In this document: positions 33,011 through 33,502 of the stretch, piece after piece
Layout: each line of letters begins with the position of its first letter
How positions within the stretch are numbered: position 1 is the first letter of the stretch
Source of the DNA: a virus
Virus record (IMG/VR): IMGVR_UViG_3300008110_000030
Span: 150,618 to 214,617 of that record
Direction: 5' to 3' (one strand)
Length of the DNA stretch: 64,000 bases
The notes under the pieces: model-generated
What the model was told of the DNA's origin: nothing
Databases searched by the model: none
Seen by the model: only the letters and a program-made list of their open reading frames with translations
Made by a program: the position numbers and the translations under genes

Positions 33011-33310
33011 TGACTCGCACAGGTTAATATCATGTGCCTAGAGACAACCCGATAATAAGGGGGACGGAAGCCTTGCCGCTGTAGCAAGCACTCAACTAGT
33101 ATCCTTAACAGGACCACGATAGCAAGCACGCCTGCTGTTTAGTTGTTTGAATAGAGTCAAAAAAGGCAAAAAGAAGGGAGAAAAACCCTACGTTTGTAAG
33201 TGTGTTAGCGTACATTTGCAAACTGCCGTCATAATGAAGACGCAACTCGAGGTACCGGATGACCGCCTCTGTAATGTTGTAACGCTAAGTGGTTGTGCTA
33301 CTCGGATAAT
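33011..33310 (+). ncRNA. Candidate structured non-coding RNA with possible pseudoknot
   Basis: No coding frame crosses this stretch, and it looks richer in G+C than its flanks. Helices visible by eye: GCCTTGC (33070-33076) with GCAAGC (33084-33089); CAACTA (33093-33098) with TAGTTG (33140-33145); GTTTG (33192-33196) with CAAAC (33219-33223); TTAGCGT (33205-33211), which lies in the loop of the last stem, with ACGCTAA (33282-33288), giving a pseudoknot; and GAGG-tac-CGG-ATGA-CCG-CCTC (33249-33269). The 10-mer TAGCAAGCAC occurs at 33082 and 33120. I see no tRNA T-loop, RNase P or known riboswitch core. The plus strand is assumed because the upstream operon would read through it. Confidence 0.4.
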
Positions 33311-33321
33311 ATAGACCATTT

Positions 33322-33345
33322 CACTTCGCCCGCCAGGGCGAAGTG
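33322..33345. repeat. Strong 10-bp hairpin CACTTCGCCC/GGGCGAAGTG
   Basis: This perfect 10-bp GC-rich stem with loop GCCA lies between two convergent transcription units. No T run follows on either strand, so it may block polymerase or protect an RNA 3' end rather than act as a classical terminator. Confidence 0.7.
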
Positions 33346-33371
33346 TGGCTGATTAATCTGGATAATATCGT

Positions 33372-33390
33372 AAACACTTCGTGTTTTATA
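33372..33390 (+). terminator. Possible terminator of the gp55-GIY-YIG operon
   Basis: AAACAC-TTC-GTGTTT is followed on the plus strand by TATAATTGTTCTTATT, a weak T-rich tail. It lies ~360 nt after the last plus-strand gene, so any RNA it ends would include the structured region. Confidence 0.4.
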
Positions 33391-33441
33391 ATTGTTCTTA
33401 TTATTAAATGAAATAAATTGTGAGTTATGAAATAACGAACA

Positions 33442-33459
33442 AGTGAGCGTTAGCTCACT
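33442..33459. repeat. Hairpin AGTGAGC-GTTA-GCTCACT
   Basis: This perfect 7-bp stem with a 4-nt loop lies 44 nt from the end of the minus-strand gp26/51 unit. It could end or stabilise either convergent transcript. The remaining bases 33460-33502 show nothing else. Confidence 0.5.
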
Positions 33460-33502
33460 GATAAATCATACTACTGATATCAACTTATACTTTAAGGATA
33501 AC

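Follow-up and report, generated by a model that had tools for sequence, protein, structure and literature searches.

A pseudoknotted phage RNA with two matched repeats in the gap between convergent operons

The gap between two phage operons at 33011-33502 of a 64,000-nucleotide window (positions 150,618 to 214,617 of the 214,617-bp IMG/VR virus record IMGVR_UViG_3300008110_000030) almost certainly encodes one real folded RNA of about 460 nucleotides (nt) with a defined architecture. The RNA follows a SegE-type GIY-YIG gene (32564-33010; PF19835), and lies in the space between this gene and a convergent one (33503-33721). It carries two short unpaired repeats, R1 and R2, whose cores are the same within an RNA and differ between phages. 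The 5′ third corresponds to the Rfam family RF01718 (Polynucleobacter-1), and the 3′ core domain probably belongs with RF02947 (cow-rumen-2).

A structured RNA on the plus strand

A first-pass annotation of the window had described the gap as an unexplained structured non-coding region, and this description held. The minimum free energy of 33001-33462 was −136.1 kcal/mol (z = −4.17), a value that none of 100 shuffles reached, the sole same-strand open reading frame in 33011-33502 (33147-33314, 55 amino acids, TTG start) had no Pfam match, and covariation was found throughout. The 5′ end lies about 10 nt upstream of the start noted earlier and overlaps the GIY-YIG stop codon; the 3′ end was placed after the last conserved hairpin.

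33001-33462, plus strand: whole RNA, from the alignment of relatives and covariation over the full span; ends approximate

In the covariation alignment (108 sequences, effective number 84) nearly all of the best-scoring column pairs corresponded to helices of the RNA. Counts for the named helices were obtained from 48 diverse sequences, with shuffle and partner-slide controls. Paired cells amounted to 90.6% in 33172-33291 and 82.1% in 33001-33168, with 309 and 277 two-sided changes, respectively, vs. 107 and 95 in shuffles, none of which attained the observed count in either part. The signal was lost when helix partners were slid, a control more telling than the shuffles because helices had been picked with sight of overlapping data. 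Compensatory changes backed four pseudoknots (33003-33006/33079-33082, 33013-33014/33023-33024, 33205-33211/33282-33288, and 33228-33232/33259-33263) and the covariation among relatives that the first-pass annotation had proposed as a check was observed. In paired positions G-U cells outnumbered A-C cells (213 vs. 87), which assigns the RNA to the plus strand. The higher G+C content suspected earlier applied to the first 300 nt (0.44) and dropped to 0.335 at the 3′ end.

The possible origins first proposed for the region fared differently. A new phage non-coding RNA was correct as regards a phage RNA with a pseudoknot, though not a wholly new one, its 5′ third being RF01718. A degenerate ribozyme or intron remnant was not supported, since the fold is fully kept and no group I or group II intron model of Rfam matched at E up to 5. 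A packaging or replication element was not supported either: the pairs fit a plus-strand transcript, and the RNA occurs elsewhere in the genomes of another phage lineage.

Two repeats that change together

33290-33312, plus strand: repeat R1, ACTC (33300-33303) followed by the core GGATAAT (33304-33310), equal to the R2 core in 104 of 105 sequences
33346-33368, plus strand: repeat R2, ATCT (33356-33359) followed by the core GGATAAT (33360-33366), covarying with R1 at +56
33321-33346, plus strand: hairpin between R1 and R2, conserved, with two-sided changes

R1 and R2 are direct repeats at an offset of 56 nt that flank the hairpin 33321-33346, which the first-pass annotation had recognized (as 33322-33345). 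At most one of 88,903 other column pairs scored as high as those at +56 (33304/33360, 33299/33355, 33308/33364, and 33310/33366), which vary as equal letters, not as base pairs. The two 7-nt cores of an RNA are identical in nearly every relative, yet at least 37 changes were counted on a FastTree tree built without the core. Core identity had been required only loosely in the search that located the repeats (five of nine positions). The R1 core was preceded by CTC and the R2 core by TCT without exception (94 of 94), partly by construction because that search required those letters. Where R1 and R2 differ in a fixed way (CUC vs. UCU, then G vs. A), each difference is a transition.

The match was maintained with other sequences. 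Divergent members keep R1 equal to R2 with the cores TGGCAT, GGTCAA, AGTCAAG, CGCAG, and AAAGAAT, and the cow-rumen-2 RNAs showed a repeat match of their own that exceeded 5000 of 5000 permutations. Two contigs of rumen phages (3300037455_000543 and 3300028887_000071) have two copies of the RNA each, with cores that differ between copies and match inside each of them. This indicated that the requirement for a match applies to every copy of the RNA separately. Two unpaired segments are therefore required to be identical rather than complementary, a constraint for which we know of no precedent and which makes the function testable.

The repeat pair 33304/33360, the more significant one, was absent from the first-pass annotation, which had pointed to a 10-nt direct repeat, TAGCAAGCAC. 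The latter does occur twice, but its copies lie in different, unrelated hairpins and are not conserved, so it is probably due to chance.

Several known arrangements were considered for R1 and R2 and dropped: antiparallel R1-R2 pairing, tandem sheared G-A pairs, CsrA sites, codons of a T4 gene 60-like bypass, and a recombinase overlap. In every case the grounds were the same-letter covariation at a fixed offset together with the occurrence of cores of other sequence.

Domains and relationship to two Rfam families

The 5′ domain aligned with RF01718 over the whole model, well above the gathering score.

33012-33148, plus strand: 5′ domain, RF01718 Polynucleobacter-1 (cmscan 83.9 bits, gathering score 37, model 1-141 of 141)
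33003-33082, plus strand: pseudoknot 1, 33003-33006 with the loop 33079-33082 (84% of cells paired, two-sided changes in 4 of 4 pairs)
33013-33024, plus strand: pseudoknot 2, 33013-33014/33023-33024, crossing the hairpin 33017-33037 (93.8% paired; GC:30/AU:15)
33017-33037, plus strand: 5-bp hairpin (94.3% paired, covariation in 5 of 5 pairs)
33070-33089, plus strand: hairpin whose loop forms pseudoknot 1 (75% paired, covariation in 5 of 6 pairs)
33093-33145, plus strand: closing stem 33093-33097/33141-33145 (helices 6 and 7, 88-97% paired, covariation in 4 of 5 pairs)
33119-33138, plus strand: hairpin 33119-33123/33134-33138 (96.7% paired)

A proposed loop pairing, 33130-33133/33164-33167, had 45.7% of cells paired. 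Polynucleobacter-1 was listed for Burkholderiales and for fresh water and estuary, with function unknown, and was marked as cis-regulatory ("y") in the table of Weinberg et al. 2010 (PMC2864571). The RF01718 model covers only the 5′ third of the RNA described here and lacks the 5′ strand of pseudoknot 1, which falls outside it, as well as the cow-rumen-2-like domain and R1/R2. In contrast with the cis-regulatory mark, the present RNA is a phage RNA gene that does not lie upstream of a regulated gene; such a position is an annotation of RF01718, not a defining feature of the model. As a separate observation, columns 33102 and 33114 covary as U-C/C-U (score 98), which probably reflects a register shift of the hairpin 33102-33113 between two subtypes.

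The 3′ core domain aligned with the whole of RF02947 without reaching its gathering score of 66.

33192-33291, plus strand: 3′ core domain, aligned with RF02947 cow-rumen-2 (20.1 bits, E 0.18, model 1-106 of 106)
33192-33223, plus strand: 12-bp hairpin whose loop forms pseudoknot 3 (80.9% paired, covariation in 12 of 12 pairs)
33205-33288, plus strand: pseudoknot 3, 33205-33211/33282-33288 (94.5% paired, covariation in 7 of 7 pairs)
33228-33263, plus strand: pseudoknot 4, GTCAT 33228-33232 with ATGAC 33259-33263 (97.1% paired; CG:27/UA:20, GC:25/AU:21)
33243-33279, plus strand: stem 33243-33246/33276-33279 and inner GAGG/CCTC stem 33249-33252/33266-33269 (95.3 and 100% paired, respectively)

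Pseudoknot 3 is the one predicted by the first-pass annotation (TTAGCGT with ACGCTAA), and it was proven by two-sided changes in all seven of its pairs. The hairpin GAGG/CGG-ATGA-CCG/CCTC proposed there stood in its outer part only: the GAGG/CCTC stem was unchanged in 48 of 48 sequences, and the inner CGG/CCG pairing is replaced by pseudoknot 4.

Cow-rumen-2 and 33192-33291 have in common the UUAGC loop and the motifs GCCGYCAU and ACnGGAUGACC, and in both RNAs the next hairpin is flanked by matched repeats. They differ in the 5′ domain, and cow-rumen-2 occurs in several copies per genome of jumbo rumen phages. The loci retrieved by a cow-rumen-2 pattern were true RF02947 members, many of them on jumbo rumen phage contigs. 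A search model built solely from relatives of the present RNA (model R1, not to be confused with repeat R1) matched 13 of 20 such loci with E-values no higher than 5, the best being 9e-4, and always over its full length (1-120), part of the score being due to selection because the locus pattern contains a motif shared with the model. These matches overlapped those of RF02947 wherever loci were scanned with both. Chance loci picked with a similar motif gave mostly local matches of 21-24 bits, with one full-length match at 26.8 bits. On these sequence comparisons, 33192-33291 is very likely, though not proven, to be homologous to cow-rumen-2. The full-length RF02947 alignment and the reciprocal search therefore suggest that RF01718 and RF02947, both orphan families in Rfam, are probably parts of a single RNA superfamily. 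This would bring the two families together, show the full-length RNA to which they belong, and give them a host context, namely large phages, here mostly from environmental and rumen metagenomes. In a 416-kb jumbo rumen phage contig (IMGVR_UViG_3300028832_000001) we observed four copies of the cow-rumen-2 motif (L293, L301, L302, and L305).

Genomic position and distribution

A search of IMG/VR with the GIY-YIG protein yielded about 600 stretches among the matches listed. RF01718 reached its gathering score in 15 of 20 scanned loci, nearly always right after the GIY-YIG gene, and in a separate scan it did so in 10 of 12 loci (L106, L071, L075, L184, L197, L205, L024, L190, L123, and L030), the remaining two (L093 and L097) having no match. 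A conserved 21-nt motif outside RF01718 found more than 120 contigs. We compared 148 IMG/VR loci with the motif and with non-identical RNA cores, and in most of them the RNA lies downstream of gp46/GIY-YIG. The GIY-YIG gene was directly upstream in 105 of 118 loci, separated by an insert in five, and absent or inverted in eight. The next gene with a homologue always belonged to a convergent baseplate block, either adjacent (32 loci, this one included) or after an insert (67 loci). The convergent next gene and the separable GIY-YIG gene indicated that the RNA is not a 5′ leader and is not bound to the nuclease gene. A 5′-untranslated region (UTR) switch and an element that accompanies GIY-YIG are therefore rejected; nor is the RNA the remnant of an intron.

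In another lineage, of myovirus type (L123, L184, and L190:11818-13392), the RNA is located near a permuted tmRNA (RF04321) and tRNA genes and is immediately followed by a gene for a T7 gp0.7-like kinase; at least one of these loci is Melnitz-like, with a cyclase-like gene 40% identical to that of methylophage Melnitz. The probable superfamily was found here in large T4-like phages and in rumen jumbo phages. No blastn match was obtained among 50,697 records of cultured phages, and the models gave no match in nine whole records apart from one 13-bit chance match. In bacterial genomes the 21-nt motif gave 37 matches, of which only L232 was clearly real. L232 (CAINOI010000056.1) is a 4.5-kb phage-like contig in a Bacteroidetes metagenome bin, where the end of the RNA is followed by a convergent gene. 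RF01718 was not found in 369 Gammaproteobacteria genomes, a search that included no known RF01718-bearing genome as control; RF01718 has been stated to be present in a Polynucleobacter genome.

Near the RNA, the window encodes a late sigma factor, gp47, gp46, a baseplate hub protein, and a portal protein whose nearest cultured matches (about 50% identical) come from the jumbo phages Sinorhizobium phage Phosso and Pseudomonas phages PA5oct and Paride. Neither ARAGORN nor Rfam detected tRNA or tmRNA genes within the 64-kb window; across the whole virus record there are 23 tRNA genes (L253:206-4743, L255), of which 20 are clustered together. The SegE-type GIY-YIG protein falls in PHROG 447, labelled "NAD synthetase," a name used in many phage records that looks like a widespread annotation error.

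Possible role of the RNA

We favor a stand-alone, trans-acting, phage-encoded RNA that presents two copies of one short recognition sequence on a rigid scaffold, most likely to a base-pairing partner, a reading to which we give about an even chance. The pseudoknotted body, with its RF01718-like 5′ and cow-rumen-2-like 3′ domains, would hold R1 and R2 unpaired around their hairpin, as a short recognition sequence given twice in each RNA and changed between phages and between genome copies. Both repeats would pair with the same nucleic-acid partner, of the form 5′-U-(core complement)-GGG-U-3′; since the fixed R1/R2 differences are all transitions, a single partner could pair with both through wobble. 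The RNA might act in this way as a two-site antisense, guide, or sponge RNA. Because copies in one genome differ in core, each RNA would have its own target, and this partner would belong to the host or to sequence missing from the record, because searches close to the RNA and through the record yielded none. The fold, its conservation, its placement in phages, and the matched repeats are shown; that the RNA acts in trans, that it base-pairs with a partner, and what this partner is, we infer. The two-site recognition mechanism itself is tentative. That RF01718 and RF02947 form a single new class of guide-like phage RNAs, with paired, identical, reprogrammable recognition sequences and an own target per copy, is possible but doubtful.

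Several results weigh against this reading. The core complement was not enriched within 3.5 kb over the 7-mers of other phages; in the 214-kb record the exact search for a core partner returned just the two repeats themselves, and the search allowing wobble gave weak matches only. Positions −3/−4 before the core agree between R1 and R2 in just 11-12%, and a few repeat pairs contain mismatches (e.g., the cow-rumen-2-type L292 and L308).

Alternatively, one RNA-binding protein or dimer could bind at both repeats, with a specificity that varies between phages and with the RNA as its decoy or as a ribonucleoprotein scaffold. The unpaired and identical repeats would suit such binding, as would the location beside the T7 gp0.7-like kinase gene in one lineage, but a single protein would not explain different matched cores within each of two rumen phage genomes, and for protein specificity to have changed at least 37 times within one clade is a lot; we regard this explanation as unlikely. 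It is quite unlikely that R1 and R2 are sites of recombination, cleavage-ligation, or template jumping that remove or copy the hairpin segment. Orthogonal sites of this kind would be matched in pairs and differ between genome copies, as observed; however, the virus record as it stands contains no reverse transcriptase (PF00078, RVT_1), as looked for in a retron, no product without the hairpin segment was seen, and the flanking helices are conserved as RNA. A two-state switch, in which one further segment of this RNA would be contested by the two repeats or exchanged between them, would likewise need matched strands, but no column covaries with both repeats and a complementary segment was not enriched within 400, 1500, or 3500 nt, which makes it very unlikely.

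We attach as little probability to a cis-regulatory element, or to a 3′ UTR or terminator of the gp46-GIY-YIG operon. The cis-regulatory mark of RF01718 (PMC2864571) and the position directly after this operon agree with it; against it, the downstream gene is convergent, what lies upstream is not constant (inserts, RusA, no GIY-YIG, inverted order), and the other lineage has the RNA in a tRNA/tmRNA cluster. Concerted evolution of two short neutral repeats through gene conversion, to which direct repeats 56 nt apart would lend themselves, is hardly credible given that identity ends exactly at the core, that CTC and TCT were never converted, and that −3/−4 rarely agree while the core changes so often.

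The IS110-family bridge RNA carries sequence to either side of a capping hairpin, within an internal loop; its guides are complementary to target and donor DNA and go with an IS110 recombinase. It resembles the present RNA in layout only, as here both sides are identical direct repeats, and no transposase link was seen, nor was a search for one made. Type III antitoxin RNAs (ToxI) are made up of repeated RNA units that change in concert from one family to the next, unlike the two short imperfect units in a large conserved scaffold found here, and no toxin gene was recognized adjoining the RNA. OLE, GOLLD, and ROOL are large ornate RNAs, and the present RNA is similarly large and ornate with no role assigned; their Rfam models did not match it and the motifs differ. 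GOLLD and ROOL, often phage-linked, have been described as large ornate RNAs without an assigned role (PMC12286853).

The 3′ end and possibly similar elements in cultured jumbo phages

33372-33386, plus strand: UUCG-type hairpin, recurring in many relatives and missing from some
33416-33440, plus strand: stem with an inner GAG...CGAA-type motif (covarying pairs 33418/33439, 33419/33437, 33420/33436, 33424/33432, and 33425/33431)
33442-33459, plus strand: terminal hairpin with strongly covarying pairs

The first-pass annotation had noted the first and last of these hairpins; the last was borne out, and the first was found not to be general. The hairpin 33442-33459 likely marks the 3′ end of the RNA or the end of transcription. 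It has no T run on the plus strand, and a sigma-70 promoter scan of the region gave none on that strand.

At the position corresponding to that of the RNA, PA5oct-like and Phosso jumbo phages show a gene-poor slot after gp46 and a RusA-type resolvase gene and before the baseplate hub. In Paride (L261:3640-4840) and Phosso (L262:3210-4050) it comprises 0.8-1.2 kb without convincing genes, and some records annotate nothing there. Neither slot was matched by the models. At its end each has a long stem that bears a GAG...ACGAA motif, together with a terminal hairpin, like 33416-33459, and judging from these sequences they may harbor further large RNAs of this kind.
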